The notes under the pieces: model-generated
What the model was told of the DNA's origin: nothing
Databases searched by the model: none
The model's input: the letters and a program-made list of their open reading frames with translations, nothing else
Position numbers and translations under genes: made by a program
Part shown: positions 7,534 to 24,068 of the stretch, piece by piece
Layout of the letters: the number at the start of each line of letters is the position of its first letter
Numbering within the stretch: position 1 is the first letter of the stretch
Virus record (IMG/VR): IMGVR_UViG_3300020159_003894
Location: 1 to 24,292 of that record
DNA: 24,292 nucleotides
Reading direction: 5' to 3' (one strand)
Source of the DNA: a virus

Positions 7534-8271
7534 ATGAAACCATTGATCACAATTATTACTCCGACAACGGGTAATCCACATCTAGCTAAAGCAGTTCAGT
7601 CAGTAGAAAATCAAACATACGAAAACATACAATATCTTATTGTCATAGATGGTAACAAAAGATTCATCAATACAAGTGAAGTTTTAGAAACAATCGATTG
7701 TAAAAGATATGAAACTATTGTCTTACCGAAAGCAACAGGGTACGATCAGTATAACGGACATAGAATATATGGTGCAATGACCTATATTGCTGAAGGTGAA
7801 TTTTTATGTTTTCTTGATGAAGATAATTGGTATGAACCAAATCATATAGAATCTTTAGTTGAAACTCTTCATGAAAAAACTTGGGCTTATTCTTTGAGAA
7901 AAATAGTTGATCAAGGAAACAATTTTATTTGTAATGACGATTGTGAGTCTCTAGGTAAATGGAAATCTGTATTGAATGATCATTTCGTTGATGTTGGTTG
8001 TTATATTCTTCCTAAAAAAATTGCTCTTCAATTTTCACCAGGATGGTATAGAAGAGCAAGAAATCCACATGATCAGCCAGAAGTTGATCGTCTACTTTCG
8101 CATATACTATTCACACAAATACCAAAAGAACAGGTTGACACGAACGGTCAATATACATTAAACTATCGTGTTGCAAGCAGAACTGATTCTGTTCAAGCAG
8201 AGTTTTTTAAACGTGGTAACGAACAAATGAAAAATATAATGAATGGAGAATACCCATGGAGAAAGACCTAA
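7534..8271 (+). CDS. GT2-type glycosyltransferase
   Basis: 245 residues. The N-terminus ITIITPTTGNPHLAKAVQSV, followed by ENQTYENIQYLIVIDG, is the standard nucleotide-sugar-binding half of a GT-A fold family 2 transferase. FLDEDNWYEPNHIESL supplies the DxD-type metal site (LDED at 94-97). A tryptophan-containing segment (WYRRARNPHDQPEVDR, about 171-186) may form the acceptor side with a candidate catalytic Asp/Glu. No membrane segment, so a soluble cytoplasmic enzyme. The ribosome site is weak (AAGGG about 12 bases before the ATG). It is the first gene of the glycan island, and its end overlaps the next gene by 16 bases. Sugar and acceptor unknown. Confidence 0.85.
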   Translation: MKPLITIITPTTGNPHLAKAVQSVENQTYENIQYLIVIDGNKRFINTSEVLETIDCKRYETIVLPKATGYDQYNGHRIYGAMTYIAEGEFLCFLDEDNWYEPNHIESLVETLHEKTWAYSLRKIVDQGNNFICNDDCESLGKWKSVLNDHFVDVGCYILPKKIALQFSPGWYRRARNPHDQPEVDRLLSHILFTQIPKEQVDTNGQYTLNYRVASRTDSVQAEFFKRGNEQMKNIMNGEYPWRKT

Positions 8272-9137
8272 TTATAGGCGCATTCACAAACTATACTGAC
8301 TATGATGTACTAAAGCCTTGGGTACAATCTATTAAAGATACTGGCTTTGAAGGTGATATAGTTCTAATTGCAATCGAAGCGCCGGATAACCTTGTAAAAA
8401 TCCTAGAGAAAGAAGGCGTCAAGGTTGTGAGAGGAAGTAACCCTCAAAAAATGATGGTACATATGCTTCGTTTCTTATCGATATATGATTACCTCAAAAA
8501 CAACAAAAACAAATATCGTAATGTTATTTCAACAGATGTTCGTGATGTAATTTTTCAAAGTAATCCATTTGATTATTTAAAAACTAAATTTTATAATATT
8601 GGTTTAGTTGCTGCATCTGAAGCAATTAAAATCAAAGATGAAAAATGGAATAGAGAAAATATTATTAAAAACTTTGGTCCATATTTCTACAATGATATAG
8701 AAAATAGTGAAGTTTTGAATGTGGGTATTATTGCAGGCACGGCAGAATTAGTAAAAGATTTATGTTTTACACTTTTTCAACTGTCTTCAAATAGACCTGA
8801 TTGGGTAGCAGATCAAGCTGCATATAACATGTTACTCTCTTTTGAACCATGGAAATCAAAATGCTCAATAACAAGGCTTCGTGATGGATGGGCACTAAAT
8901 GCCCATGTAACTAATAAACCAGATCAAATGCTTGAATTTGAACCTTATTTATTGGAAAAACGTCCTTATTTTGAAAAAGGTAAAGTTGTAAACTCGGAAG
9001 GTAAACCATTCGTAATCGTTCATCAATATGATAGAGTTCCCGAATGGATGGAATTTTTCTCTAAAAAATTCGGAACAAATATTACAAAAGAAACAAATAC
9101 TGGCACATCGCCTAAATACTTCCTATACAATTCATAA
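8256..9137 (+). CDS. Putative GT-A-fold glycosyltransferase
   Basis: 293 residues, starting inside the end of the preceding gene behind TGGAGAA. The N-terminus is a Rossmann-like alpha/beta segment (DLIIGAFTNYTDYDVLKPWV). At 93-100 TDVRDVIF gives a D-x-x-D metal-site-like motif right after a predicted buried strand (YRNVIS), the arrangement found in GT8/GT77-like transferases. Later, NVGIIAGTAE and DQAAYNMLL resemble the family's donor and acceptor loops. I could not assign a CAZy family. Co-location with eight other sugar-related genes is the main support for glycan function. A lipopolysaccharide- or capsule-modifying role is possible but not shown. Confidence 0.65.
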   Translation: MEKDLIIGAFTNYTDYDVLKPWVQSIKDTGFEGDIVLIAIEAPDNLVKILEKEGVKVVRGSNPQKMMVHMLRFLSIYDYLKNNKNKYRNVISTDVRDVIFQSNPFDYLKTKFYNIGLVAASEAIKIKDEKWNRENIIKNFGPYFYNDIENSEVLNVGIIAGTAELVKDLCFTLFQLSSNRPDWVADQAAYNMLLSFEPWKSKCSITRLRDGWALNAHVTNKPDQMLEFEPYLLEKRPYFEKGKVVNSEGKPFVIVHQYDRVPEWMEFFSKKFGTNITKETNTGTSPKYFLYNS

Positions 9138-9160
9138 TTTTATAAATATGAGGCTTTGAT

Positions 9161-9991
9161 ATGAGCAAAATCACTTTGGTTACCGCTTTCTATGATATTG
9201 GCCGGGAAAATTGGTCAACTAATGTTGAAAAAAATGGCGGACCACTCCCACACTATCTTCAAAGGTCTGTAGACAAATATATGGAACATTTTTCCAGAAT
9301 GTGTGAGATCGACACAGAAATTATCGTTTATACTTCTTCAGACATGTCAGAGAGAATGTCTTCAATTTCCCCTAAAGTTAAAGTTGTTGAATATGATTAT
9401 TTTAATGAAAGAAAAGAACTGAGGGACAAAATACAAGAAATTCAATCTTCAGAATCCTTTGTTAAAAGGATCAATCCTTATCAAGTTAGAAATCCAGAAT
9501 ATTGGTCAAAAGATTATGTTGGTGTCACATCTCTGAAAGCTTTCTATATTCATGATGCATTTGAAAAAGGATTGATAACGAATGATTGGGCTGCATGGAT
9601 TGATTTCGGCTATTGTAGAGATGATGACCACATACCTATTTCGAAAAAATGGGAATATGATTTTACTCCAGGAAAAATGCATTTTTTCAATTATAGAGAT
9701 CCAGAAGTTGCGAGGGCCCAAGAACAAATTCAACTTGCAATATTAAACAATATAGTGTATATTATTGGTGGGGTTTTTGTTGGTGAACGAGATCAATGGT
9801 GTATGTTGAGAACTCATATGGAAAAATCTTTAAATGTTCTTATAGATAATAATCTTGTTGATGATGATCAAGGACTTCTGTTAATGTCATATTTTAGAAA
9901 TCCAGAAAAATATGAATTGCACAAAATGCCATTGACACAGAATATCGAAGATGTTCGTTCTATTTTAAAAAAGTTTAACAAATATGAATAA
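9161..9991 (+). CDS. HtrL/YibB-family putative glycosyltransferase
   Basis: 276 residues. The N-terminus KITLVTAFYDIGRENW, the middle KDYVGVTSLKAFYIHDAF and the WAAWIDFGYCR segment (about 143-153) fit the HtrL/YibB (WlaTC-like) family. Bacterial members lie in lipopolysaccharide core or capsule gene clusters and are regarded as glycosyltransferase-like. An aspartate in WIDFG (D148) is the candidate metal or donor ligand. GAGG at 9150-9153 lies 7 bases before the ATG. The end overlaps the next gene by 8 bases. Family assignment is by recalled signature; enzymatic activity of this family is not well documented, so donor and acceptor remain open. Confidence 0.68.
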   Translation: MSKITLVTAFYDIGRENWSTNVEKNGGPLPHYLQRSVDKYMEHFSRMCEIDTEIIVYTSSDMSERMSSISPKVKVVEYDYFNERKELRDKIQEIQSSESFVKRINPYQVRNPEYWSKDYVGVTSLKAFYIHDAFEKGLITNDWAAWIDFGYCRDDDHIPISKKWEYDFTPGKMHFFNYRDPEVARAQEQIQLAILNNIVYIIGGVFVGERDQWCMLRTHMEKSLNVLIDNNLVDDDQGLLLMSYFRNPEKYELHKMPLTQNIEDVRSILKKFNKYE

Positions 9992-11372
9992 ACTTATTAT
10001 TTTTGATTTGGACGGTGTTTTAATAGACTCCCGAGAACTTCATTATGATGCGCTCAATAAAGCATTAGAAAAAGTGGATTCAAAATATGTGATTTCGAGA
10101 GAAGAACATTTAAGTTTGTATGACGGTTTAAATACTACAAAAAAACTTAAAATGTTAACCGAAAGAAAAGGTTTACCTACGTCTGTATATGATAAGGTGT
10201 GGACAGACAAACAAGAAGCGACTTTTAGTTTAATTCGAGGATTCAATAAAAATTATTTTTTGTGCTCTCTGTTCTCTGAAATAAAAAAGAAAGGCTACAA
10301 AATTGCTGTAGCATCAAATTCAATTCGTGAAACTGTAAAATTATCTTTACTAAGTATTGGAGTAATTGATTCTGTTGATTACTTTGTTAGTAACGAAGAT
10401 GTGAAAAGAACTAAACCATACCCAGAAATGTATTGGAAATGTATGCTAGAAATGAATGCTCTTCCAAAAAATACAATTATTGTTGAAGATAGTCATATAG
10501 GTAGACAAGGTGCAATGGACTCAGGAGCACACTTGTTGCCTGTAGAAAATTCACAAGAAGTAAGTTCTGATAGAATGTTAAAGAGGTTAAATGATATGAT
10601 GGAAATGATAGAAGGTAAAAGTAAAAAATCTTTGCCCTGGAGAGACAGTAAACTTAATGTTTTAATTCCAATGGCTGGAGCTGGATCAAGATTTGCGTCA
10701 GTTGGTTACACTTTCCCAAAACCTCTGATTGAAGTTCGAGGAAAACCAATGATTCAGATTGTGGTTGAAAATCTGAATATTGAAGCAAATTATATTTTCA
10801 TTGTGCAAAAAGAACACTATGAAAAATATAATTTAAAATATCTTTTGAATGTAATTGCTCCAAATTGCAAGATTGTTCAAGTTGATGGTTTAACCGAAGG
10901 TGCTGCATGTACCACATTACTAGCAAAAGAATTTATTGATAATGAAAATCCATTAGTCATGGCAAACTCTGACCAATTTGTTGAATGGAACTCAAACGAA
11001 TGTTTATATGCTTTTTCTGCTGATTCTATCGATGGAGGAATCGTCACGTTCGAAGCGACTCATCCAAAATGGTCATATGCAAAACTAGGAGAAGATGGCT
11101 TCGTTTCTGAAGTGGCGGAAAAACGTCCTATTAGTAATTTGGCAACTGTTGGAATTTACTATTGGCGACATGGTAATGACTACGTTCGATTTGCGGAACA
11201 AATGATTCAAAAAAATATTAGGACGAATAATGAATTTTATGTCTGTCCAGTATTTAATGAAGCCATTCAAGATGGTAAAAAAATCAGAATTAAAAATATT
11301 GATAGAATGTGGGGCATCGGCACACCAGAAGACTTGAATTATTTTTTAGACAATTTTAAGGAAAAACTATGA
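9984..11372 (+). CDS. Fusion: HAD phosphatase plus sugar nucleotidyltransferase
   Basis: 462 residues in two domains. Residues 1-205 are a HAD-superfamily hydrolase: FDLDGVLIDS (D8 nucleophile, D10), VASNS (111-113), K144 in TKPYPEMY and IIVEDSHIGRQGAMDSG (E168, D169), all four HAD motifs. After a linker near 210-222, residues 223-462 are a GT-A-like NTP transferase: LIPMAGAGSRF (GAGSRF 232-237), FPKPLIEVRGKPMI (K246), and MANSDQ (D330), with MWGIGTPEDL at the end as in sugar-nucleotide pyrophosphorylases. The likely sequence is dephosphorylation and NTP-activation steps on a sugar or small polar group, such as hexose, heptose or LicC-like choline chemistry. That would supply the donor for the neighbouring transferases. 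Donor identity is inference; both domain calls are strong. Confidence 0.88.
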   Translation: MNKLIIFDLDGVLIDSRELHYDALNKALEKVDSKYVISREEHLSLYDGLNTTKKLKMLTERKGLPTSVYDKVWTDKQEATFSLIRGFNKNYFLCSLFSEIKKKGYKIAVASNSIRETVKLSLLSIGVIDSVDYFVSNEDVKRTKPYPEMYWKCMLEMNALPKNTIIVEDSHIGRQGAMDSGAHLLPVENSQEVSSDRMLKRLNDMMEMIEGKSKKSLPWRDSKLNVLIPMAGAGSRFASVGYTFPKPLIEVRGKPMIQIVVENLNIEANYIFIVQKEHYEKYNLKYLLNVIAPNCKIVQVDGLTEGAACTTLLAKEFIDNENPLVMANSDQFVEWNSNECLYAFSADSIDGGIVTFEATHPKWSYAKLGEDGFVSEVAEKRPISNLATVGIYYWRHGNDYVRFAEQMIQKNIRTNNEFYVCPVFNEAIQDGKKIRIKNIDRMWGIGTPEDLNYFLDNFKEKL

Positions 11373-12055
11373 ATTCATATTTAAAAATGCAGAAACAAAA
11401 TTACGATAATGATGCCAGAGCATGGAATTTATCAAATAAGGATCCTGTTGTGGGCTCATATCGCAGACAAAACGAATTTTCAGATTACGATGAATTTCTT
11501 TTCCCAAAAATTGATACAAAAGATTTAATATCTCTCGAATATGGTTGTGGTCCCGGCAGAAATTTAATAAAATTCAATAAAAAATTTAAAAGAATTGACG
11601 GGGTTGACATAGGACAAATAAATTTAGATAATGCAAAAATAAATTTAGAATCTGAAGGAATAACAGATTATAAACTATTTTTAACAAGTGGTGATAATAT
11701 TCCAACAGAAGATTCAGTATATGATATAGTTTTTTCAGTAATATGCCTTCAGCATATTTGTGTACATGACATACGTTTTAAAATTATGACTGATGTATAT
11801 AGAGTATTAAATGATGAAGGATATTTTTGTTTTCAAATGGGATATGGTAAGGAAAGAATTAATTCAGTATCTTATTATGATAATTTTTATGAAGCAACAG
11901 CAACAAATGGATTAATGGACACCCGAGTTGAAGATGCCTCATATTTGGTTAATGACTTAGAAAAAATAGGATTTAAAGATATTACTTATGTAATACGACC
12001 CGTTGGTCCTGGAGATGTTCACCCTAACTGGATTTGGGTACAAGCAAAAAAATAA
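11369..12055 (+). CDS. Class I SAM-dependent methyltransferase
   Basis: 228 residues, starting in an ATGA overlap with the fusion gene. SAM-binding motif I is SLEYGCGPGRNLIKF (57-63 core), with the acidic residue ending strand 2 at D80 in IDGVDIGQINL. Motif II/III-like segments (YDIVFSVICLQHI, VLNDEGYFCFQMGY) follow, as in the Methyltransf_11/UbiE-like group. There is no DNA methyltransferase catalytic motif (no DPPY or PCQ), so a small molecule, sugar or lipid-linked substrate is more likely than DNA. Its place inside the glycan island suggests O-methylation of a sugar, which is inference. From this gene to about 14250 the sequence is visibly more A+T-rich than the replication block. Confidence 0.86.
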   Translation: MNSYLKMQKQNYDNDARAWNLSNKDPVVGSYRRQNEFSDYDEFLFPKIDTKDLISLEYGCGPGRNLIKFNKKFKRIDGVDIGQINLDNAKINLESEGITDYKLFLTSGDNIPTEDSVYDIVFSVICLQHICVHDIRFKIMTDVYRVLNDEGYFCFQMGYGKERINSVSYYDNFYEATATNGLMDTRVEDASYLVNDLEKIGFKDITYVIRPVGPGDVHPNWIWVQAKK

Positions 12056-12066
12056 AGTGAAAAAAC

Positions 12067-12783
12067 ATGAGAGTTGCTATAATTTTAACTGGTCATATGA
12101 GATGTTGGGAACAAGTTTTTCCAAACTTCAAACAACATTTCATTGACAAATATGATCCAGATATTTTTATCGATACCTGGGAAGATGAAGCTTACTGGGA
12201 TCCACACAGTCAACATGGAATAGTAAAAAATGCTCCTTTGGTTGATTTTAATAAATTAATTGACACATATAAACCGATAGTTCTAAGAAAAGAACATTTT
12301 GAAAATTACCAAAAATCATTCGAGGAAAGGTCTAAACAATACACAAATTTTTATCACGTTCCTAAAAATATAATATCAATGCTTTTTAAAATTGGTAGAG
12401 GAATAGCTCTAATGGAAGACCACATGTTCGAAACAGGAAAAATCTATGATCTTGTTTTCAGGATGAGGCCTGATCTAGTTTTCCATGAAAACTTACCTAA
12501 TTTCAATTCATCAAAATTTTATACTATGGGTTATCGTAATCATATGGGTCAAGGAACATCTGATATGATTCAGGTAGGAAATTTTTTTACTATTAGTCTT
12601 TTTTCTAAACTACTTCATCATCTTCCACATATTTACAGAGAAACAGGAATTTTATGTCCACATGTAATATCTGAACATTTCATAAAAAGATTAGGATTTC
12701 CTTGGGAGGAATTTATTGTACATAAAACAATTATGCACACACCATTAGGTGAATATAAAAATAAGGAACTTTATCTGAAATGA
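12067..12783 (+). CDS. Glycosyltransferase-like protein, paralogue 1 (TGHMR...RMRPD type)
   Basis: 238 residues. It begins MRVAIILTGHMRCWEQ, a nucleotide-binding-like strand-loop with G9-H10, followed by DPDIFIDTWED (31-40). RMRPDLVF at 132-139 follows a YDLVF strand. The same three landmarks in the same order occur in the genes at 12780 and 14684. This pattern (GHxR near the N-terminus, then DxFxxTW, then RxRPD) is known to me from uncharacterised proteins of bacterial capsule and lipopolysaccharide clusters, generally called glycosyltransferases without biochemical proof. No membrane segment. The stop overlaps the next start by 4 bases. Confidence 0.6.
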   Translation: MRVAIILTGHMRCWEQVFPNFKQHFIDKYDPDIFIDTWEDEAYWDPHSQHGIVKNAPLVDFNKLIDTYKPIVLRKEHFENYQKSFEERSKQYTNFYHVPKNIISMLFKIGRGIALMEDHMFETGKIYDLVFRMRPDLVFHENLPNFNSSKFYTMGYRNHMGQGTSDMIQVGNFFTISLFSKLLHHLPHIYRETGILCPHVISEHFIKRLGFPWEEFIVHKTIMHTPLGEYKNKELYLK

Positions 12784-13460
12784 AGATAGCAATTTTTTTT
12801 ATAGGTCATTTAAGAACTTGGAATGTATGTAAAAACAACGTGTTAGAAAATTTAATTGACAAAACTCATTCTTTTGATATTTTTGTAGAAACATATAATA
12901 ATATTTTTAGATTCGATTATAGTGTCAGAGGTGAATGTAATCAAAATAAAATTGAAAATGAAGAACAAATAAGAGAACATTTTTCTGATTTTAACGTTGT
13001 TAACTTATCTGTGGAAAATCAAATAGAAATGAGTGCCGATTCTTCTCAAGCAATAAAGATACAAAAGGCTTTTGATACACTTTTACGATTTGAAGAAAAA
13101 ATAGGAAAATATAATTTAGTTGTTAAAACGCGTCCAGACCTATTCTTTGAAGAAAAAATAAATTACGACTCTTTCGAAAATATTGAAGACGATAAACTAA
13201 TATTAGGTATGAAAACGACAACACATATAAATGACACTTTTGCTCTAGGTAAAAGTGATACTATGAAAAAATATTTTAATAGATTTCGAATAACATCAAA
13301 TTCTTGTCCATATAAAAGTATAGATTCTTTAGCCGTAAAGGAAAAAATAATTTTAGAACAAAAAATAGATCATTATATAATTAGACTTCCTTTAAATAGC
13401 GATTCAAAACACAAATATGTGAAAACTCGCCCAGGTGAAGAAATCCCTTTGGATATTTAA
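12780..13460 (+). CDS. Glycosyltransferase-like protein, paralogue 2 (IGHLR...KTRPD type)
   Basis: 226 residues, ATGA overlap with the gene before. Landmarks shared with its neighbour: IFFIGHLRTW (7-14), FDIFVETY (32-39) and VVKTRPDLFF (114-123). The rest has diverged strongly, so this is an old duplication and not a recent tandem copy. The C-terminal half (ILGMKTTTHINDTFALGKSDTMKKYF) corresponds by eye to the NDQFAIADPETMKIY segment of the third paralogue. That suggests a shared N-D-x-F-A donor or acceptor loop. Predicted soluble transferase; sugar unknown. Confidence 0.58.
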   Translation: MKIAIFFIGHLRTWNVCKNNVLENLIDKTHSFDIFVETYNNIFRFDYSVRGECNQNKIENEEQIREHFSDFNVVNLSVENQIEMSADSSQAIKIQKAFDTLLRFEEKIGKYNLVVKTRPDLFFEEKINYDSFENIEDDKLILGMKTTTHINDTFALGKSDTMKKYFNRFRITSNSCPYKSIDSLAVKEKIILEQKIDHYIIRLPLNSDSKHKYVKTRPGEEIPLDI

Positions 13461-13464
13461 AAAT

Positions 13465-14247
13465 ATGAAAAAAGTAAAATTGTACATCGTAACCTATAAC
13501 TCGTCTGAAGATTTAAATCAAACTTTGAATAGTTGTTTTTCTGGAAATTTAAATTCAATTAATTTTGAAGTAAATGTAATTAATAATCATAGCAATTTTG
13601 AAATAGATGATAAATTCAAAGAAAAAGTGAATATTTTGCATAATGTATTAAGACCAGATTTTAGTAAAGGACATTTAAGTAGAAATTGGAATCAAGCTAT
13701 TATAAATGGTTTTAAAAGTTTAATAAGTCCGGAATGTGATATATTGGTTACTTGTCAAGATGATACCATTTTCGAAAAAACTTGGTTAGAGGACTTATTA
13801 CAAATACATGAAAAATATAGCTTTTATGCAGGTGATTGTGGTGATATGATATGTTCTTATTTACCCGAAGCGGTACGTAAAATAGGATTATGGGACGAAA
13901 GATTTTGTAATATACAGTTTCAAGAGGCTGATTATTTTTTAAGGGCGAATATTTATAATTCAGAAGAAAGCTCAATAATGGATTTTCTTCATTCCAGAAC
14001 TCTGAATCCGACAAAACACATTGCAAAAAGAATAAAGGCAGCAGGTATCATTACAGACAGAGGTTCTACAAGTAATGAATATCACAGCTATAGTTTAAAC
14101 ATTTTTGAACAAAAATGGGGAAATAAACTTAATTGGAATTCTAAAATAACAGATATACTACATAGTAAAATTCCATCTTATTTTTATTATCCTTATTTCG
14201 AAAGAGATATTTATGGTGCCAAAGAAAAGGGATATGTTATACCATAG
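13465..14247 (+). CDS. GT2-like glycosyltransferase
   Basis: 260 residues from the ATG at 13465. A GTG at 13435 would give ten more residues but would sit inside the upstream gene and lacks a ribosome site. The N-terminus KLYIVTYNSSEDLNQTLNSC is the family 2 pattern, and ILVTCQDDTIFEKTWLEDLL gives the metal-binding QDD at 98-100. DFSKGHLSRNWNQAI (65-79) resembles the nucleotide-sugar-contacting loop. No transmembrane helix. Very A+T-rich codon use, like the genes on either side. Donor and acceptor are not predictable from sequence. Confidence 0.78.
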   Translation: MKKVKLYIVTYNSSEDLNQTLNSCFSGNLNSINFEVNVINNHSNFEIDDKFKEKVNILHNVLRPDFSKGHLSRNWNQAIINGFKSLISPECDILVTCQDDTIFEKTWLEDLLQIHEKYSFYAGDCGDMICSYLPEAVRKIGLWDERFCNIQFQEADYFLRANIYNSEESSIMDFLHSRTLNPTKHIAKRIKAAGIITDRGSTSNEYHSYSLNIFEQKWGNKLNWNSKITDILHSKIPSYFYYPYFERDIYGAKEKGYVIP

Positions 14248-14256
14248 AGGTTAATT

Positions 14257-14736
14257 ATGAAAATTATTGCACACAGAGGTCTCATACAAGGACCCGATAA
14301 AAATTTAGAAAATCGCCCAGAGCAAATAGAAGAAGTTTTAAAAAGTGGCATCGATTGTGAAATAGATGTTTGGTCGATTTATGGAAAATGGTTTTTAGGT
14401 CATGATGAACCGCAATATGAAATATCTACAAGTTTTTTAGGTAAACAAGGATTATGGATACACTGCAAGAATTTAGATGCTCTATATCAATTTACTGATA
14501 TGCCATTTAAGTATGAATATTTCTGGCACCAAAATGATGATTTTATTCTAACATCAAGTAATTTTATTTGGACTTATCCCGGGAAACACCTCACAAAAAA
14601 TTCTATTGCCGTCTTACCTGAAATCAATCGAGAATATTGGGAATATGTAAAATCAGTAAACATTTATGGAGTGTGTACAGATTATGTTGAAAAATTCTTA
14701 TCCGAAACTAGCACTATGTCTGTCGGGACAACCTAG
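14257..14736 (+). CDS. GDPD-like phosphodiesterase domain protein
   Basis: 159 residues forming a short glycerophosphodiester phosphodiesterase-like (PI-PLC-fold) protein. MKIIAHRG supplies H6-R7. NLENRPEQI gives E18-N19, CEIDVWS gives E35 and D37, and FLGHDEPQY gives the second catalytic-type histidine H49. GDPD enzymes cleave glycerol-phosphate diesters with a divalent metal and two histidines, all seen here. At about 160 residues it is shorter than cellular GDPDs (around 240 or more), matching a compact form I recall from phages and surface-glycan clusters. No signal peptide, so cytoplasmic. Its last 53 bases overlap the next gene in another frame, and its C-terminal tail after YGVCTDYVEKFL may therefore be poorly conserved. 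Could edit a glycerol-phosphate substituent on a glycan; inference. Confidence 0.72.
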   Translation: MKIIAHRGLIQGPDKNLENRPEQIEEVLKSGIDCEIDVWSIYGKWFLGHDEPQYEISTSFLGKQGLWIHCKNLDALYQFTDMPFKYEYFWHQNDDFILTSSNFIWTYPGKHLTKNSIAVLPEINREYWEYVKSVNIYGVCTDYVEKFLSETSTMSVGTT

Positions 14737-15418
14737 AAGTTATTTCGATGCTTATCAATATATAAAAAAGAATCTACTCGATCATTTTAATGTTGATGTT
14801 TTTGTACATTCCTGGAAAAACTCAAATAAGTTAATTCAATTAAAAATCTATGAAGAGATAAACTCAATTTATTCTCCAAAACTATTATTATTTGATAACG
14901 TTTTAGACGAAAAAACCAATTCTGATTTAGTAGTTCCGAACTCATCACATCCAGCACATTTCTGCACCTCAATGTTTTACTCATTACATAAGGCAGATCA
15001 TTTTAGAATAGCTTCAGAAATTTGTTTAGGTCAAAAGTATGATTTTGTGATTAGAACAAGATTCGATCATGCACTAAATTGTGTATTAGACTTTAGTAAA
15101 ATGGAAAAAGGTAAAGTTTACATTTCAAAGGATACAGACGGTCTAAATCCTCTATTAAATGACCAATTTGCAATAGCGGATCCGGAAACAATGAAAATAT
15201 ATTCCAGCACTTTTCTTTTCCTAAGGCACCATTATAATAAAGGTGTTCCCTTGTGTGGACATGCAATGCTTGAAGCACAATTACAGATGTTTGAAATTCC
15301 TATAGAAAGAATTGACATAAATCATCCTTTTCAGGATGGCAAATATAATATAGGAAGACACTCATTATTTCGAAATGATATGGATAAATGGGTCGATCCA
15401 AAAATCTGGGGCTACTAA
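14684..15418 (+). CDS. Glycosyltransferase-like protein, paralogue 3 (SGQPR...RTRFD type)
   Basis: 244 residues from the ATG at 14684. An in-frame ATG at 14666 would add six residues, but the only ribosome-site candidate, GGAG at 14668-14671, lies downstream of it and upstream of 14684. Landmarks: LALCLSGQPRSYFDA (9-23), VDVFVHSWKN (37-46), FVIRTRFDHAL (121-131) and NDQFAIADPETMKIY. These parallel paralogues 1 and 2, with RTRFD replacing R(M/T)RPD. It is the last gene of the glycan island and overlaps the GDPD-like gene by 53 bases. After its stop come a CTAAATA element and the head-cargo block. Confidence 0.6.
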   Translation: MLKNSYPKLALCLSGQPRSYFDAYQYIKKNLLDHFNVDVFVHSWKNSNKLIQLKIYEEINSIYSPKLLLFDNVLDEKTNSDLVVPNSSHPAHFCTSMFYSLHKADHFRIASEICLGQKYDFVIRTRFDHALNCVLDFSKMEKGKVYISKDTDGLNPLLNDQFAIADPETMKIYSSTFLFLRHHYNKGVPLCGHAMLEAQLQMFEIPIERIDINHPFQDGKYNIGRHSLFRNDMDKWVDPKIWGY

Positions 15419-15455: not shown

Positions 15456-16652
15456 ATGCTATCCTTTGGAAAGTTCTTACTGGAACAAATAGATCCAGAA
15501 GAAGGCGCAAGCCGCCAAATTAAACATCTAACTCACGTTGAAGATCGCGCTCTCCAGACAGGGGAGAAGGGTGCATTACGCTCTATCTCTTCTCTTAAAG
15601 CTGCGGCTGAACACATTGCATCTGGAAAAAAGTCATCTGAACTTACAACAAAATATGATGGCTCTCCAGCTATAGTTTATGGGCACCATCCAGATAACGG
15701 TAAGTTTTTTGTTGCATCAAAATCGGCATTCAATAAAACTCCTAAGATAAACTATACACCTCAAGACATTGAAAACAACCACGGGCATGCACCTGGATTG
15801 GTACAAAAACTAAAACATGCGCTAAAACATTTACCAAAAGTTGCTCCAAAAGAAGGAGTATATCAGGGTGATATGATGTTTTCAGCGGAAGATAAGAAAG
15901 CTGCAAAAGGTGGAGGAGTTTCTTTCAATCCTAATCCTTCAGGCTTGACATACACCGCACATGGAGATTTAGGTAAAAAGGCAAAAAAAGCACAAATAGG
16001 AGTGGTTACACACTTAAAGTACGAAGGTAAAGATTCTAGTAACTTAAATGCTTCACATGAAGTTGACCATGAAAATTTCAATCACCATCCAGATGTTTTT
16101 ACGGTCGATCCACAAATGAACACTTCGGCTGTTCACTTTGGTCCAAAAGACCGCGCAGAATTCAATAAGCATGTTGCCGCCGCTGAGGCTGTACACAATA
16201 CTCACGGTGATGACATGTATGCTGGCACTAAAATGCATCATGGAATCGGTGGGCATCTTGAAGCCTATATGAATCACACCGTTAGAAGCGGCGAGGCTCC
16301 GAATCATGAAAACTTTAAAACATGGTTGGAAACTAAAAAAACAAAAGAAATTGACAAATTAAAAGTTGAAAAGAACAAAAAAGTTAGGCAAGACGAATTG
16401 AAATCTGAACTAACAAAAATTGAAACAAACAAAAAACACTACAATAATCTTTTCAAATTTCATAAACATTTACAGAATGCCAAAAATACACTTATAAATG
16501 TAATGAATCAACACCAACAATTTCAACATCAGCATGCGGGTGAAAACGCAAATCCAGAAGGATATGTTTTCCACCATAAAAACGATACCGATAAATTTGT
16601 AAACCGACAAGAGTTCTCCAAAAGAAATTTTGAGGGAATAAGAAACATATGA
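15456..16652 (+). CDS. Divergent ligase-like nucleotidyltransferase (DUF6267-type), possible head cargo
   Basis: 398 residues, GAGG 5 bases before the ATG. I recall this family from T4-like aquatic phages as an uncharacterised DUF, but its motifs read as the covalent nucleotidyltransferase superfamily of DNA/RNA ligases and capping enzymes. Motif I is TTKYDGSPAIVYG with K66 as candidate AMP/GMP-accepting lysine. Motif III-like is VYQGDMMF (135-142), IIIa-like IGVVTHLKY (181-189), IV-like PEGYVFHH (367-374), and V-like KFVNRQEFSKRNF (380-392). A lysine-rich helical stretch (about 285-345) separates IIIa from IV, longer than in typical ligases. Its N-terminus MLSFGKFLLEQ resembles the short capsid-targeting-like ends of three other proteins here. 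Activity could be ligation, adenylylation or capping; undetermined. Confidence 0.72.
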   Translation: MLSFGKFLLEQIDPEEGASRQIKHLTHVEDRALQTGEKGALRSISSLKAAAEHIASGKKSSELTTKYDGSPAIVYGHHPDNGKFFVASKSAFNKTPKINYTPQDIENNHGHAPGLVQKLKHALKHLPKVAPKEGVYQGDMMFSAEDKKAAKGGGVSFNPNPSGLTYTAHGDLGKKAKKAQIGVVTHLKYEGKDSSNLNASHEVDHENFNHHPDVFTVDPQMNTSAVHFGPKDRAEFNKHVAAAEAVHNTHGDDMYAGTKMHHGIGGHLEAYMNHTVRSGEAPNHENFKTWLETKKTKEIDKLKVEKNKKVRQDELKSELTKIETNKKHYNNLFKFHKHLQNAKNTLINVMNQHQQFQHQHAGENANPEGYVFHHKNDTDKFVNRQEFSKRNFEGIRNI

Positions 16653-18544
16653 AAACATTTCTAGAAAAAGTCGAAGATGACAACAGAACCGAAAGGCCAG
16701 TTGTGATGGCTTTTGGTAGGATGAATCCACCTACCGTCGGGCATGAACAACTTGTAAATCATGTTAAAAAAATCGCCCAAGATTATAATGCACCCCATCA
16801 TGTGATAATTTCACATTCGACAGATTCAAAAAAGAATCCTTTAGATGTGGTAAAAAAAGTAAAACACGCCAAAAGATTTTTTCCCAACACTAACATATAT
16901 TCTTCAAGTAAAGAATCACCTACATTTTTACAACATGCATCTAAACTTTATCATTCTGGGCATGATCATTTGATTATGGTTGCAGGCTCAGATCGAGTTG
17001 ATGAATATAAAAATAAATTAGCTCAATACAATGGTACACATGAAGGTGCGCTTTATAATTTCAAGAAAATAGAAGTTAAATCTGCCGGACAAAGAGATCC
17101 AGATGCCGAAGGTGTTGAAGGCATGTCTGCATCCAAAATGCGAGAACACGCAAAAAATAATGATTTCACCTCGTTTAGGCAGGGCATTCCGTCACATGTT
17201 TCAGAAAAACATTCAAAAGAACTTTTCAGAGATGTTAGGACTGGAATGGGATTACATGAAGATGTTAATCATGGGCTTTTTAAAGCGATTTTTGTTACAG
17301 GTGGCCCAGGATCCGGTAAAGACATTATCATACGGGAATGCATATCATGTGAAAATATAGTCGAATTAAATGCAACAATAGCAATATCTATACTAAATGA
17401 TAAGCATAAACTGTATGAATATACCACAGACAGCCGTAGAGAAGCAATCAGAAAAAGAAAGCCACTTGTCATAAATGGTACGACAAGTGAAGAATTTAAG
17501 ATTGCTGAAATAAAAATGGAATTGGAAGAATTAGGTTACGAAACGATGATGGTTTTCGTTAATACTTCGAATGATTCTTCTAAAAAAAGAAATGAGATGC
17601 ATGCGAGGATGATGTTAGAATCTGTCAGACAAGAACGTTGGGAAACATCTCAAAAAGTGGCAAATAATTTATCAAATAGTTTTACAAAATTTATAGAATT
17701 TGACAATTCATTGGATCTAAAAGAAGCAACAGATTTCGAAAGAACAAACAAAGAACAGGATATAACTCTTATTCATGAGATTACAAACTGGTTTTTAAGT
17801 ATACCGGTTGAAAATAAAGTGGCAAATGATTGGCTACATAGGAATAGAAGAGTAAATATAGACAAGCTTTTTGAAAATGCAATTATATATCAGGAGAAAA
17901 AATATGTTTCAAAAAATAAAACAAATAGCAAAGCTTCTATTACCGAAGGGAAAGACTGCTCCTGTGGAACCGACAAGGCATCCTCTAGACTCTTTGGTGG
18001 ACTCCCAAGAAAGAAAGGCCAACGCATACTTGACAACATCTGCCCCAGTTGCCAACTCACCAGAAAACAAGGAAGAGAAGATTCAGTCACCGACGGAGAC
18101 GTTAAATCCAACTCCAGTTACATCTTCAGAACCTACGTTGAAGCTGGAGACCCCACCATCACCAGAGCCCCCGAAGCCAAAGAAACAAAGTTCCAACAAG
18201 ACGCAGACAAAATCAGGGCAAAAAAACAGAAAACGAACAACTCAGAAGCAGGGAAAGTAATGAAGGTGCCAGGCACCTCTCCTGAGTATGATACAAGAGG
18301 TTCAGGTACAGTTTATCCAATGTCTGGTCTTGGTATGGTAACATATAGAGAACAGAAAGAGAATAAATATACCAGTGCCGCAGAGGTAACTCGCAAATCT
18401 TTCAAGAAATTCAAAGAAGCAATAGATTCGCCAAGCCCAGATATGGGTGTTACCGGAACAGCACATGGACCTACTAATAAAGAACCGATGGAAACTTTAA
18501 ATAAGATTGAAACTAATCCTACAATAAAAAAGAAGAAAAAATGA
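16649..18544 (+). CDS. NadR-like fusion: HIGH-type nucleotidyltransferase plus P-loop kinase with long tail
   Basis: 631 residues, ATGA overlap with the ligase-like gene. Residues 17-200 are a nucleotidylyltransferase: AFGRMNPPTVGH (T/HxGH motif ending at H32), VAGSDRVDEY, and the C-terminal MSASKMR (159-165), as in NMN- or phosphopantetheine-type adenylyltransferases. Residues about 212-385 are a P-loop kinase with Walker A GGPGSGKD (218-225). This order matches NadR (NMN adenylyltransferase plus ribosylnicotinamide kinase), although substrates cannot be read from sequence. Phage relatives are often called cytidylyltransferases. The tail (400-631) has a CSC...CPSC cysteine set (437-468), a disordered-looking stretch, and RKSFKKFKEAID near 582, which resembles the protein's own MKTFLEKVED start. 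A second gene appears to be nested in it at 17904-18260. Confidence 0.82.
   Translation: MKTFLEKVEDDNRTERPVVMAFGRMNPPTVGHEQLVNHVKKIAQDYNAPHHVIISHSTDSKKNPLDVVKKVKHAKRFFPNTNIYSSSKESPTFLQHASKLYHSGHDHLIMVAGSDRVDEYKNKLAQYNGTHEGALYNFKKIEVKSAGQRDPDAEGVEGMSASKMREHAKNNDFTSFRQGIPSHVSEKHSKELFRDVRTGMGLHEDVNHGLFKAIFVTGGPGSGKDIIIRECISCENIVELNATIAISILNDKHKLYEYTTDSRREAIRKRKPLVINGTTSEEFKIAEIKMELEELGYETMMVFVNTSNDSSKKRNEMHARMMLESVRQERWETSQKVANNLSNSFTKFIEFDNSLDLKEATDFERTNKEQDITLIHEITNWFLSIPVENKVANDWLHRNRRVNIDKLFENAIIYQEKKYVSKNKTNSKASITEGKDCSCGTDKASSRLFGGLPRKKGQRILDNICPSCQLTRKQGREDSVTDGDVKSNSSYIFRTYVEAGDPTITRAPEAKETKFQQDADKIRAKKQKTNNSEAGKVMKVPGTSPEYDTRGSGTVYPMSGLGMVTYREQKENKYTSAAEVTRKSFKKFKEAIDSPSPDMGVTGTAHGPTNKEPMETLNKIETNPTIKKKKK
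17892..17896 (+). promoter_or_regulatory. Strong internal ribosome binding site for the nested frame
   Basis: AGGAG sits 7 bases before the ATG at 17904, inside the coding sequence of the nucleotidyltransferase/kinase gene. It is as good as the best ribosome sites in the window (for instance AAGGAG before 22222). Within the host gene it reads as a Gln-Glu-Lys stretch, so it need not be there for regulation, but spacing is optimal. Confidence 0.55.
17904..18260 (+). CDS. Candidate overprinted gene nested in the nucleotidyltransferase/kinase gene (118 aa, Pro/Lys/Ser/Thr-rich)
   Basis: 118 codons in the +1 frame relative to the enclosing gene, ATG with AGGAG at 7-base spacing, TAA at 18258-18260. 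The product begins with an amphipathic basic helix (FQKIKQIAKLLLPKG). It then becomes a low-complexity proline-rich chain (16 Pro in 118), ending in a very basic Lys/Gln/Thr tail. There is no Cys, Trp, signal peptide or membrane segment, so a disordered nucleic-acid-binding or scaffold-like protein is plausible. By hand count about 42 of 89 enclosing-frame codons from 17950 end in C, against about 7 of 57 after the nested stop. Third bases of the outer frame are second bases of the inner one, so C there gives Pro/Ser/Thr/Ala. This suggests selection on both frames. Function unknown; the alternative is a biased tail with no second protein. Confidence 0.5.
   Translation: MFQKIKQIAKLLLPKGKTAPVEPTRHPLDSLVDSQERKANAYLTTSAPVANSPENKEEKIQSPTETLNPTPVTSSEPTLKLETPPSPEPPKPKKQSSNKTQTKSGQKNRKRTTQKQGK
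18264..18278 (+). other. Short hairpin just after the nested frame's stop
   Basis: AGGTGC-CAG-GCACCT forms a perfect 6-bp stem with a 3-base loop, starting 4 bases after the nested TAA. No U-run follows, so it is not an intrinsic terminator. The TAA also overlaps an ATG (TAATG at 18258-18262) in the enclosing frame, so hairpin and restart codon sit together. May be chance. Confidence 0.35.
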
Positions 18545-18861
18545 AAAGTTTCAAAGAATTTATTAACGAAGAGCATCTAGAAGAAGCCTCACCCGCATGG
18601 CAGAGGAAAGAGGGCAAAAACCCATCTGGTGGTTTAAATCGTAAAGGTATTGCTTCGTATCGTAGAGAAAATCCAGGATCAAAACTTTCAATGGCAGTCA
18701 CTACTAAGCCATCAAAATTGAAGCCTGGTTCAAAAGCTGCAAAAAGACGCAAGTCATTTTGTGCCAGAATGACTGGAATGAAGAAAAGATTAACTTCCGC
18801 TAAAACGGCAAGAGACCCTAATTCAAGAATTAACAAATCACTCAGAAAATGGAACTGCTAA
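18541..18861 (+). CDS. Small basic conserved phage protein (DUF6321-type), CTS-like N-terminus
   Basis: 106 residues, ATGA overlap with the preceding gene. The N-terminus MKSFKEFINEEHLEEA resembles the T4 capsid-targeting sequence MKTYQEFIAEA, and LEE/A at 13-16 fits the T4 gp21 protease rule (Leu-x-Glu then a small residue). The body AWQRKEGKNPSGGLNRKG and the end KSFCARMTGMKK, LTSAKTARDPNS, LRKWNC match a small basic protein found in very many phages as I recall (DUF6321). The mature product would be highly basic and start at SPAW, well suited to lie with DNA inside the head. Family recognition is good; function unproven. Confidence 0.8.
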   Translation: MKSFKEFINEEHLEEASPAWQRKEGKNPSGGLNRKGIASYRRENPGSKLSMAVTTKPSKLKPGSKAAKRRKSFCARMTGMKKRLTSAKTARDPNSRINKSLRKWNC

Positions 18862-18873
18862 ACGGAGAATAAT

Positions 18874-20169
18874 ATGTTCACTAAAAATAAATTTGCTCAA
18901 ATGGATTCTATTTCAAATCTTATTAATACCATTCTTGAAACTGATACAAAAGCCAAGATGGAAGAGTTGAAAGGTAATCAACATAAGATTGATAAGAACA
19001 AGAATAATAAAATCGATGCACATGATTTTAAGATTCTCCGTGGTGAAAAGAAAGTTGAAGAGTCTAGTCATCAAGCCAAGACTACGATGAAACATGTTAA
19101 GAATCCTACAGCAGGAGAGAAAGCTGCCGCTAAAGATATCAAGCCAGGTGTTGCAGGATATCGTGATCGTATTGCCATGCTCAAATCTGCCGAAGCCCGT
19201 GGTGGTCTAAAGAAAGAAGAAACCCAACAAGTTGATGAAGCCGTTGACATGTCCGATGCAAAAAGTGTTGCAGCACATTTAGCAAAAAAAGCAATTTCAC
19301 TACATGGTATTTCTAATCCAACTAGAGCGGCTCATCATGCAAAAAATGCTGATGCAATAGAGAAAACAATAGATCGTGTAAAAAGATCAAGTTCACCCTC
19401 CTCTTTAGCTAAAGCACACACTGAAGTTGGTTCTGTTAGCACTGCGGTGCGACGTATGAATGTTGGAAAAGCAATGTCAAGTGCAGAAAAAACAGCACAT
19501 AAATCTTTACAATCTGGTGTTGTGAAACATTTACAAAATCATCTAGATCAACATAAAGCGGCATTTAGAAATGCTGCTGCTAAATTTGCTGCAAAAAATG
19601 AAGAAGTAGAACAAGTAGATGAAGCAAAAGAACCAGGTTTTAGAGCATCTTATGGGCTTGGTAGAAAAGGTACTGCTGCAAAAAAGCCTGAAACATACGG
19701 AAAAAGAGTGACAGGCAAGGGCTACGATAAGCCTGAGAATGAGCGCAAAGCACCAGAAGGTAATGTAGCAATGACAAGTATGATGCCTGGGCATGACGAG
19801 AGAGCAGCAAAATTCTTAGCGCGTCAGGCCAAAGGAACACTGGTCAAAGGTAAAGCACAAAGCGCAAAACAAATGGAAAAAGAGGAAATTGATCCTAAAA
19901 AAACAATGACCGATACTCTAAAAGGTCGTGAAAAGGATTCTAGCAATCCATTCCTTTCTAAAAAAGTAATGATGGATGTTCCAGATAATGTTAAAGAACA
20001 AACTGAACAAATTGATGAGCGCACTTTAACTGCACCAGAAACAGCAGAAAAAGAACGTATCGTTAAAGGAATGAAAAAGAGTTTAGCTGGTTTTAAATCA
20101 CGTTACGGTAATCGTGCAAAATCTGTTATGTACGCAACCGCAACTAAAGCCGCAAAAGAACGAAAATAA
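18874..20169 (+). CDS. Modular virion-type protein with EF-hand loop and repeated cleavage-like motifs
   Basis: 431 residues, GGAG before the ATG. It is a string of basic modules joined by acidic linkers. Residues 37-52 (HKIDKNKNNKIDAHDF) form a near-canonical EF-hand calcium loop with ligands D40, N42, N44, D48 and D51. A module at 78-112 (PTAGEKAAAKDIKPGVAGYR...) is followed by EETQQVDEA (115-123). A helical Ala/His-rich module leads to EEVEQVDEA (243-251). A Gly/Lys-rich module (YGLGRKG, YGKRVTGKGY) leads to EQTEQIDER (375-383). A final module ends FKSRYGNRAKSVMYATATK, a C-terminal block I recall from many phage proteins. The linkers look like prohead-protease sites (hydrophobic-x-Glu then Ala). 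Interpreted as an internal head polyprotein or scaffold; not proven. Confidence 0.72.
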   Translation: MFTKNKFAQMDSISNLINTILETDTKAKMEELKGNQHKIDKNKNNKIDAHDFKILRGEKKVEESSHQAKTTMKHVKNPTAGEKAAAKDIKPGVAGYRDRIAMLKSAEARGGLKKEETQQVDEAVDMSDAKSVAAHLAKKAISLHGISNPTRAAHHAKNADAIEKTIDRVKRSSSPSSLAKAHTEVGSVSTAVRRMNVGKAMSSAEKTAHKSLQSGVVKHLQNHLDQHKAAFRNAAAKFAAKNEEVEQVDEAKEPGFRASYGLGRKGTAAKKPETYGKRVTGKGYDKPENERKAPEGNVAMTSMMPGHDERAAKFLARQAKGTLVKGKAQSAKQMEKEEIDPKKTMTDTLKGREKDSSNPFLSKKVMMDVPDNVKEQTEQIDERTLTAPETAEKERIVKGMKKSLAGFKSRYGNRAKSVMYATATKAAKERK

Positions 20170-21879
20170 GGATTTACCATGAGTGAACGTAAAAAACAGA
20201 TTTTCTTAGAGGCTCTTAAAAAGTCTAAAAAAGAATCTGTCATGGGAAAACTAGCAAATGGAGACACTGATCCAATGGAGCCATGGTCTAAAAAACATGC
20301 TCCACTGGATGAGGTCAACACTCAAGTTCTTTGGAGATACATCAAAGCAATGGGTCGTGATCCCAGAACCATTTCACTCAATGACCGTCTAAATCTCGCA
20401 CGAACAGATAGATTCAAAAAGTTTGCAAGAGACCATGTTAAGTTGATTCAACAACAAAAAGAAGAAGTTGAACAAGATGTGGCGGAAGAAACAGTCAATG
20501 AAGCTGGTACTGGTACATTAATGTCATACATCAAAGCAAAAGGATTGAATCCACTATCAATGGATGGCAATCAGAAAAACAAATATTCACATTCTAGTGA
20601 ATTCAAATTGTTCAAGCACAGAAAAATGAAAGCCGAAACTTCAGGAATGGGAGAGAGAGGTGATGACTGGAATGAAGAAAAGAAGCCAGTCAAAGAGGCT
20701 GTTGACGAAAAAGATACAGTTACGCTAGATATTCCTCTGATGATTCGTATTGTCGAATATGCAAAAGAAGATGCAAAAACTGACATGGATCTTCACAGAA
20801 TGGTCGAGAACTTAATCGATCTACGACATGAAGGTGTTCTCACTATGGAACACTACGAACAAATAGTAAATATTAAAAAAATAAAAGAAAATATCGATGT
20901 AGATGATTTCATAAAACACTTGAGAAGCAAAGGTTTGCCTGCTAAAAGGCCCATGTCAAAAGCTGATTCAGATGCAGAATTAAAAGCGAGAGCCGAAAAA
21001 CTCAAAAGTGCTGAACCGAAAAAACCTGAACCTTATAAAGATCCTTATCCACTTGGTGGAAGAGATGAAAGATCCGGCAGGAGCTACAGTGAAGAAGTTG
21101 AACAGATTGATGAATTGAAAAAACAATCTGACACACAAGATATGGACTCACATATCACAAGAGAAGATTTAAGAAAATGGTTTAGTAAAACTGATCCTGA
21201 AGGCGGCTGGAAAAGAATCAATAGTAAAGGTGAGGCAATCGGTCCGTGCGCCCGTGAGCCAGGTGAACCAAAACCAAAATGCATGTCAAACGAAAAACGT
21301 GCAAAGCTTTCTAAAAAAGCAAGAGCGGCTGCCGTAGCCGCAAAACGTAGACATGATCCTGTTGCAGATAGAGCAGGTAAAGGTGGCAAGCCAGTCAATG
21401 TTTCGAATTTTGGAAAAGGTAAGTTAAGCGAAGAAGGTGTTGATGAAGCTTGTTGGGACACACATAAACAAGTTGGCATGAAGAAAAAAGGTAATAAGAT
21501 GGTACCTGATTGTGTACCAAAAAATGAAGAAGTTGAACTCATTGATGAAAAGAATTCACCAACAAATCCAAAACTTTGGGCTAGAGCAAAGTCGTTAGCA
21601 AGGTCGAAATTTGATGTTTATCCATCAGCATATGCAAATGGTTGGGCCTCCAAATGGTATAAATCTAAAGGTGGTGGCTGGAGAGCAACTAGTGAAGAAA
21701 CTGTCGCCGAAGCAAAAAAGTTTGGTTACGATGCAATCAATGCACGTTTTAAAAAACAAACAGGAAGTTCTCTAGAAGATAGAGCAAAGCATTATGCAGC
21801 TACTTCAGAACGTTTAAAGAAAATGCAAGCTGATTATGAAGCAGGAAAGATGAAAAAAGAAGAAACTGTAAATGAGGGC
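19216..21879 (+). repeat. Dispersed linker motif, about ten copies in two adjacent genes
   Basis: Copies at 19216-19242, 19600-19626, 19996-20022, 20461-20487, 20485-20505, 21091-21117, 21430-21450, 21526-21552, 21694-21714 and 21859-21879. All encode variants of E-E-(V/T)-(E/-)-Q-(V/I)-(D/N/A)-E-(A/G/other). DNA copies are imperfect (for example GAAGAAGTTGAACAGATTGA and GAAGAAGTAGAACAAGTAGA), so conservation is at the protein level and copies are not recent duplications. Confidence 0.75.
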
Positions 21880-22185
21880 ATCTACGGAATAGAAGACTCA
21901 CCAATGTCTGCCACTAATTCAGTTAAAGCTATGGAATCAAGAATGGCAAAAGAAAAATCAAAATCTGCACGAATGATTAAGGCCATTTATAAGAAAAAAG
22001 GTTTAAAAAAAGAAACAACTTATGATTGGGAAAAATCGGAAAAAGGTGTTGGAAAGGAACCCAATGCGAAGATAATTTTAAAAGGCGGTAAAACGATGAC
22101 AGGTAAAGATAGAGACACCATCGAAATTGATCCTGTTGTGAGAACAAAGCTCAACGGTGCAAATGGCACTAAACCCAATCTATAA
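20179..22185 (+). CDS. Large modular virion-type polyprotein with repeated EE-V-(D/N)-E-A linkers
   Basis: 668 residues, AAGGA before the ATG. The same linkers as the previous gene occur at EEVEQDVAE (95-103), EETVNEA (103-109), EEVEQIDEL (305-313), EEGVDEA (418-424), EEVELIDEK (450-458), EETVAEA (506-512) and EETVNEG (561-567). Modules between them: two related copies of a YIKAxGxxP unit (51-88, 114-151), an acidic helical part (180-237), and a DUF5872-like block (EDLRKWFSKTDPEGGW...GPCAREPGEPKPKC...AKRRHDP). Next come CWDTHKQVGMKKKGNKMVPDC (425-445) and KFDVYPSAYANGWASKWYKSKGGGW (477-501), a motif seen in many phage and some large-virus proteins, then a coiled helical part and a C-terminal beta-like block. 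Predicted head-internal protein processed into several basic peptides. No enzyme motif seen. Confidence 0.7.
   Translation: MSERKKQIFLEALKKSKKESVMGKLANGDTDPMEPWSKKHAPLDEVNTQVLWRYIKAMGRDPRTISLNDRLNLARTDRFKKFARDHVKLIQQQKEEVEQDVAEETVNEAGTGTLMSYIKAKGLNPLSMDGNQKNKYSHSSEFKLFKHRKMKAETSGMGERGDDWNEEKKPVKEAVDEKDTVTLDIPLMIRIVEYAKEDAKTDMDLHRMVENLIDLRHEGVLTMEHYEQIVNIKKIKENIDVDDFIKHLRSKGLPAKRPMSKADSDAELKARAEKLKSAEPKKPEPYKDPYPLGGRDERSGRSYSEEVEQIDELKKQSDTQDMDSHITREDLRKWFSKTDPEGGWKRINSKGEAIGPCAREPGEPKPKCMSNEKRAKLSKKARAAAVAAKRRHDPVADRAGKGGKPVNVSNFGKGKLSEEGVDEACWDTHKQVGMKKKGNKMVPDCVPKNEEVELIDEKNSPTNPKLWARAKSLARSKFDVYPSAYANGWASKWYKSKGGGWRATSEETVAEAKKFGYDAINARFKKQTGSSLEDRAKHYAATSERLKKMQADYEAGKMKKEETVNEGIYGIEDSPMSATNSVKAMESRMAKEKSKSARMIKAIYKKKGLKKETTYDWEKSEKGVGKEPNAKIILKGGKTMTGKDRDTIEIDPVVRTKLNGANGTKPNL
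20329..20631 (+). repeat. Internal duplication of a YIKAxGxxP module
   Basis: Residues 51-88 (LWRYIKAMGRDPRTIS...) and 114-151 (LMSYIKAKGLNPLSMD...) of the 668-residue protein align without gaps. Shared positions include YIKA, G, P, and two phenylalanines at matching offsets (F79/F142, F82/F145). An EETVNEA linker separates them. Protein similarity is clear and DNA similarity weak, so the duplication is old. Confidence 0.6.
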
Positions 22186-23370: not shown

Positions 23371-23805
23371 ATGTGGATATTAGAATGGTTGCCAAACTGG
23401 ATTTTCTATGGAATCCTTTTTTTAGGATTAATAGGATATCTAGTAACTTATCTACTTAAATTCATACCAATTCCAGCGTTATACATGTATAGAACACCGA
23501 TACAAATCGTATCGGTTATTTTTATTGTCATTGGTGTTTATATGGCAGGTTCTATTGCCAACAACGAAGCATGGGAAGCTAAAGTAAAAGAAGTTCAAGC
23601 CAAATTAGCCGAAGCAGAAGCACAAACAGCAAAAGAAGTTGTCAAAGTTGTGGAAAAAGTAGTTGTACAAACACAAATCGTTCGACAAAAAGGTCAAGAA
23701 ATTGTCAGAGTTGTGGATAGAGAAGTTGTAAAATATGATAACAAGTGTGAGATACCTCCCGCATTTATTCAAGCTCTAAATGATGCTGCGAGTCGTCCGA
23801 AATGA
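23371..23805 (+). CDS. Two-TM inner-membrane spanin-like protein (i-spanin candidate)
   Basis: 144 residues. Two hydrophobic segments at about 10-29 and 43-60 are separated by a short loop with K30 and R41. By the positive-inside rule the loop is cytoplasmic, so the C-terminal 80 residues face the periplasm. That part is a long charged coiled coil (EAWEAKVKEVQAKLAEAEAQ, then KEVVKVVEKVVVQTQIV) ending in a CEIPPAFIQALNDAA segment like the C-terminal end of Rz-type spanins. The cysteine may form disulfide dimers. It overlaps the lipoprotein gene that follows, as in Rz/Rz1 pairs. Most i-spanins have one N-terminal helix, so two is atypical. It could combine holin and spanin functions, since no separate holin is seen. 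No clear Shine-Dalgarno. Confidence 0.68.
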   Translation: MWILEWLPNWIFYGILFLGLIGYLVTYLLKFIPIPALYMYRTPIQIVSVIFIVIGVYMAGSIANNEAWEAKVKEVQAKLAEAEAQTAKEVVKVVEKVVVQTQIVRQKGQEIVRVVDREVVKYDNKCEIPPAFIQALNDAASRPK

Positions 23806-24068
23806 AGTTGATAGCACTTCTAATAGTACCTTTACTTGTGGGTTGTGCATCGAAACCTGTTCCAGTTACTATAAAATTTCCTGATGTACCGCCTCAACTT
23901 TTCGAGTCGTGCCCAGAATTAAAAAAACTTTCCGATGATGCAAAACTAAGTGATGTGGCAAAAACTGTGGTAGAAAACTATACTCTATATCATGAATGTT
24001 ATTTAAAAACAGAAGCTTGGAAACAATGGTATACAATTCATAAACATTCTTTCGAGAAATTTAAATGA
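23802..24068 (+). CDS. Outer-membrane lipoprotein, o-spanin candidate
   Basis: 88 residues beginning in an ATGA overlap with the preceding gene. Residues 1-15 form a lipoprotein signal: one lysine, a hydrophobic core and the lipobox LVGC with C15 as lipidated cysteine. Ala follows Cys, so sorting to the outer membrane is expected. The mature part starts with a short proline-containing stretch (KPVPVTIKFPDVPPQL) as o-spanins often do, then a helical C-terminus with two further cysteines (ESCPEL, HECYLK). With the i-spanin-like protein it would span the periplasm and fuse the membranes at lysis of a Gram-negative host. Order i-spanin, o-spanin, endolysin is conserved enough to trust the set. 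Confidence 0.75.
   Translation: MKLIALLIVPLLVGCASKPVPVTIKFPDVPPQLFESCPELKKLSDDAKLSDVAKTVVENYTLYHECYLKTEAWKQWYTIHKHSFEKFK

Follow-up and report, generated by a model that had tools for sequence, protein, structure and literature searches.

Comparative support for a gene nested in the +1 frame of a nucleotidyltransferase/kinase gene of uncultivated phages

The stretch of DNA analysed, hereafter referred to as the window, comprises 24,292 nucleotides (positions 1 to 24,292 of the IMG/VR virus record IMGVR_UViG_3300020159_003894). One of its enzyme genes, designated here as the outer gene, contains in its +1 frame an open reading frame (ORF) whose properties point to a second, fully nested gene. 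The features concerned are the following:

16649-18544, + strand: outer gene, 631 aa; predicted NadD-like nucleotidyltransferase, polynucleotide-kinase-like P-loop domain and disordered tail (PHROG 3041 and 12810; AlphaFold, Foldseek)
17888-18544, + strand: C-terminal tail of the outer protein (residue 414 onwards), predicted to be disordered (low pLDDT; sequence conserved in relatives)
17892-17896, + strand: Shine-Dalgarno motif AGGAG, 7 bases 5' of the nested ATG (predicted pairing -7.1 kcal/mol)
17904-18260, + strand: probable nested gene, 118 codons, +1 frame (conserved ORF, dNN/dNS, shift towards C at outer third codon positions)

Foldseek matched the outer protein to NadD and to polynucleotide kinase with probability 1.0 and TM-scores by target of about 0.5-0.6. 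Structural matches also included ATP sulfurylase and adenylate kinases, PHROG 3041 assigns the protein to the nucleotidyltransferases, and the predicted fold is that of a NadD-like nucleotidyltransferase joined to a P-loop kinase. Cytidyltransferase-like proteins with homologous nucleotidyltransferase and/or P-loop kinase domains occur in cyanophages, Pelagibacter phage HTVC008M and Methylophilales phage Melnitz, but kinase and nucleotidyltransferase are two separate genes in HTVC008M, whereas a single outer gene is found here. In the AlphaFold model, pLDDT values were low for residues 414-458, 482-508 and 527-631 of the tail. Since the overlap corresponds to outer residues 419-538 and disorder is predicted from residue 414 onwards, the nested ORF begins where the outer fold ends, and its position on a disordered tail, just past the folded kinase domain, may be the reason why the overlap is tolerated.

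The gene located 5' of the outer gene (15456-16652) belongs to DUF6267 (PF19782). PHROG 455 covers both DUF6267 and the nucleotidyltransferase, suggesting a fusion or linkage of the two in some phages. Between the DnaB-like helicase gene and the DUF6267 gene (7534-15418) lie about ten genes, several of which, by eye, resemble glycosyltransferases, sugar-nucleotide or methyltransferase enzymes. On the other side, at 18541-22185, several neighbouring genes display MKxF-type N-termini and repeated VEQxDE-like motifs, which we take to resemble the capsid-targeting and prohead-protease sites of T4-like phages.

The preliminary description of this DNA, made from the letters alone, had reported a 118-codon +1 ORF preceded by AGGAG at a 7-base spacing, and both were recovered at 17904-18260 and 17892-17896. 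The ORF is in the +1 frame relative to the outer coding sequence (16649-18544), the closest +1-frame stop 5' of its ATG is at position 17859, and it terminates in TAATGA. Within this terminus, the TAATG at 18258-18262 makes the nested stop overlap an in-frame outer ATG, where a restart could possibly yield a separate fragment of the outer tail; in many relatives the corresponding outer methionine is replaced by leucine or isoleucine.

Base composition of the outer frame changes markedly along this ORF. The share of C at outer-frame third codon positions (C3) was 44/103 codons between 17949 and 18260 and 54/511 in the rest of the gene. It amounted to 2/14 in the initial 45 bases of the ORF, 7/56 immediately downstream and 45/418 upstream (Fisher p = 2.6e-13). 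The turn to C that had been described from about 45 bases past the nested ATG was thereby borne out, and the earlier hand count (about 42/89, against about 7/57 downstream) proved close to the computed 44/103 and 7/56. When outer codons were resampled synonymously with codons drawn from the remainder of the gene, the chance of an open +1 frame in the window was P ~0.012. At this value, the openness observed in a single genome makes the window by itself suggestive only, and we dropped the idea that it could serve as sufficient proof of coding.

To evaluate the start region, pairing with CCUCCU was predicted for the bases immediately 5' of each ATG. In the window, the outer gene contains 48 further internal ATGs, all of which scored lower than the nested one. 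Over the relatives its median rank was about 2.6%, in both of the locus sets considered below, with weak motifs in L018, L035 and L056. Comparison thus shows a putative start site with a Shine-Dalgarno motif in most relatives. Ribosomes on the outer mRNA would most likely start internally, at 17904, and a small basic protein would be made beside the enzyme.

Relatives were collected from IMG/VR with the outer tail, which retrieved 65 loci, i.e. 66 sequences with the window. A +1 nested ORF of matching kind, start and extent was present in 59 of the 66, down to approximately 40% identity of the outer tail. In these carriers the ORF follows a common pattern, with an ATG (mostly ML or MF) and a brief amphipathic segment at the start, a middle part rich in Pro/Ser/Thr, and lysines abundant towards the end. 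Stops in the +1 frame of close homologues, which would have spoken against the preliminary description, were looked for, and the frame was unbroken there. The seven non-carriers (L019, L049, L050, L052, L064, L065 and L066) indicate that the nested gene is not universally required. C3 in the overlap ranged from 0.29 to 0.46 in every carrier and from 0.06 to 0.20 in the non-carriers (0.06-0.09 in six of them, 0.20 in L066), close to the level of the remainder of their own genes. It is worth noting that L019 has kept the outer CTC, CPSC and YTFKTY segments, while the nested ORF and the C shift are both absent from it. Among the relatives, L004 and L006 (1738-2900) have a nucleotidyltransferase part strongly diverged from that of L007 and L008 together with a nearly identical tail, which points to recombination between domains.

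A further search of the viral collection was performed with the inner protein only. A single profile of the 30 inner proteins was too heterogeneous to scan the collection with, whereas subclade profiles worked, and one built from the inner sequences of four divergent loci matched 112 loci, the best 80 of which were retained. Each of these best 80 of 112 started with ATG and lay, in the +1 frame, inside an outer ORF that carries a kinase P-loop motif, and 43 of them were distinct loci missing from the first locus set. No relative of the outer tail was found in GTDB genome contigs, nor was any match to the outer tail or to the nested gene found in 50,697 GenBank phage records.

Selection on the two frames was examined in pairs of relatives. 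In 22 pairs, with each sequence used once, the outer third-position difference was 0.125 in the overlap versus 0.311 upstream and 0.206 downstream, so that the drop of outer synonymous variation that had been anticipated for 17904-18260 did occur. Third positions accounted for a share of 0.44 of all changes in the overlap versus 0.64-0.66 outside; this share is the better measure, because near-duplicate pairs and recombinant upstream parts make the associated chi-square value (p 3e-20) nominal. A second locus set gave a similar picture, with third-position rates of 0.118 in the overlap versus 0.27 and 0.19 outside. Outer synonymous change in the overlap was roughly halved.

The inner frame was then considered through the dNN/dNS ratio, in which changes are scored by their effect in both frames. 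It was computed with a script of our own following the idea of OLGenie (PMC7531306), and not with OLGenie itself. In the first set (20 pairs, duplicates removed), the +1-frame ratio was 0.61 in the overlap (bootstrap 0.46-0.76) and 1.00 outside (0.93-1.07), and the +2-frame ratio in the overlap was 1.60. In the second set (21 pairs), the +1-frame ratio reached 0.67 in the overlap (0.51-0.79) and 1.02 outside (0.95-1.07). At the level of sequence, the comparison shows that selection maintains the amino-acid sequence of both frames. The preliminary description had considered both products meaningful, and our data were in agreement with this view: the outer segments NICPSCQLT and SxYTFRTY recur in relatives, including loci devoid of the nested ORF.

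Resemblance among distant inner proteins was less decisive. In a cross-clade null, outer codons were resampled with the region's own usage and the inner profile of one clade was used to score the other. Real inner proteins were clearly above this null in seven of 13 loci, borderline in one and not above it in five, so that a large part of what the inner proteins have in common is imposed by the outer protein and by C-rich codons. Inner residues 11-30 were nevertheless more alike than the outer residues encoded by the same bases, with a prominent HPLD motif.

The window also provided a negative control. A second +1 ORF of 89 codons with a C3 bump lies at 6228-6497, inside the DnaB-like helicase gene. 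It was open in every relative that was 90% or more alike and broken in all lower ones among the matches listed, and 75% of its changes fell at third positions, a proportion indicating the absence of synonymous constraint. With normal synonymous change and a frame broken in the listed relatives below 90%, this ORF was rejected as a candidate and is probably not coding. As it fails where the nested ORF passes, the procedure separates chance openness from coding.

Taken on these comparisons, the ORF at 17904-18260 is very probably a true protein-coding gene, fully nested in the +1 frame of the outer nucleotidyltransferase/kinase gene. Other explanations can be based on the same features. The +1 frame could be non-coding and kept open through outer conservation, with the C-ending codons being used for RNA structure or translation speed. 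Resampling with the codon usage of the region itself did indeed leave the frame open by chance in a fair proportion of cases, much of the inner similarity is imposed by the outer protein, and the helicase ORF illustrates that conserved openness can arise from outer conservation alone. However, a dNN/dNS ratio below 1 was restricted to the overlap and to the +1 frame, in both locus sets; the ATG and its Shine-Dalgarno motif are conserved; and L019 has lost the ORF and the C shift together while retaining the outer segments. A non-coding frame is therefore very improbable. The inner frame might otherwise be reached from the outer gene if ribosomes underwent a programmed +1 frameshift, giving a kinase with an alternative basic tail, and the +1 frame is open for about 4-15 codons 5' of the ATG in most loci. 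This seems slightly less probable still, because the ATG (80/80 among the best 80 of the 112 inner-only matches) and the good Shine-Dalgarno motif directly 5' of it are conserved; inspection by eye did not reveal a conserved shift site upstream. An embedded o-spanin, comparable to Rz1 in Rz, would account for the +1 embedded architecture and the proline richness, both of which are as in Rz1 (PMC6139136). Against it stand an inner protein that in the window is devoid of cysteine, and hence of a lipobox, a host protein that is a nucleotidyltransferase/kinase enzyme and not an inner-membrane i-spanin, and the presence of spanin-like genes at other positions of the window (23371-23805 and 23802-24068). 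It is the least probable of these readings, and for the inner protein of the window the missing cysteine excludes an Rz1-type o-spanin.

Evaluation of the relative age of the two frames is more delicate. The nested gene may be real and yet the older partner, the outer frame having been extended over it by stop loss, in which case the outer tail would be the overprinted part. The codon usage of the inner frame was somewhat nearer to that of the remaining gene and genome than was outer usage in the overlap (0.41 versus 0.23 in the window; 19/26 loci), so that the inner frame does not stand out as a newcomer by its codon usage, and the outer segment that carries the overlap is missing from L064 and L065, the most distant of the loci. 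On the other hand, L019, L049, L050 and L052 possess the outer segments without the inner ORF, and no free-standing inner protein occurred among the best 80 of the 112 inner-only matches. In an unrooted tree of the outer protein, from which the overlapped part was excluded, three changes were needed to explain the absence of the inner ORF, and well-supported branches forced no fewer than two of these. An older nested gene thus appears possible but rather unlikely, and the term 'overprinted' is to be used with reserve where it implies that the inner frame is the younger one.

As for the product of the nested gene, the inner protein of the window has a net charge of +11 and consists of 47% P/S/T/Q/N; across relatives the net charge was +5 to +16 throughout, with an amphipathic N-terminus. 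Helices were predicted at residues 2-12 and 29-39, the remainder being coil, in a low-confidence model (pTM 0.15). Its features can be summarized as an N-terminal amphipathic helix, the HPLD motif and a basic, apparently disordered Pro/Ser/Thr-rich chain. No useful match was obtained in Pfam, PHROGs, PDB or GenBank phages, the PHROG profile matches being limited to two isolated weak ones (best E 0.01, each for 1/30 members), and the family is absent from the catalogues searched. From composition and the low-confidence model, it may tentatively be proposed that the inner product acts peripherally as an accessory factor: its N-terminal amphipathic helix would dock on a membrane or a protein partner, and its flexible, positively charged Pro/Ser/Thr-rich tail would bind nucleic acid or another polyanion. 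A partnership with the outer enzyme may also be envisaged. More speculatively, the inner proteins could form an undescribed family, widespread in uncultivated T4-like phages and produced solely from the alternative frame of one enzyme gene, that would serve as an amphipathic-helix, polybasic accessory acting with or regulating the nucleotidyltransferase/kinase, for instance as a membrane-recruiting or counter-defence factor.

To our knowledge, long and fully nested genes with strong comparative support have rarely been documented in large DNA phages. With frame-specific selection in two locus sets, natural non-carriers and a negative control within the window, the present locus constitutes a well-supported example. 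It also offers a clean system in which to study how a single sequence can serve two proteins if a disordered tail carries the overlap. Embedded o-spanin genes have been passed over by gene callers (PMC6139136), and our results suggest that scans for compositional shifts at outer third positions could uncover further nested genes in viromes.

The locus belongs to the class of nested overlapping genes, with the architecture of lambda Rz/Rz1 but outside that family. It shares with this pair (PMC6139136) a small proline-rich protein encoded wholly inside another gene, in the +1 frame, and easily missed by gene callers; it differs from it in the lack of a lipoprotein cysteine, in a host gene encoding a soluble enzyme instead of a membrane protein, and in having spanin-like genes elsewhere. 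Viral overprinted accessory genes (reviewed in PMC8227390) are likewise characterized by a small, disorder-prone product inside a conserved gene and by a restricted distribution. For the +1 overlaps surveyed across viruses, the median length is 14 bases (PMC8903798), whereas the overlap found here, in a T4-like phage, is a full nesting of 357 bases.
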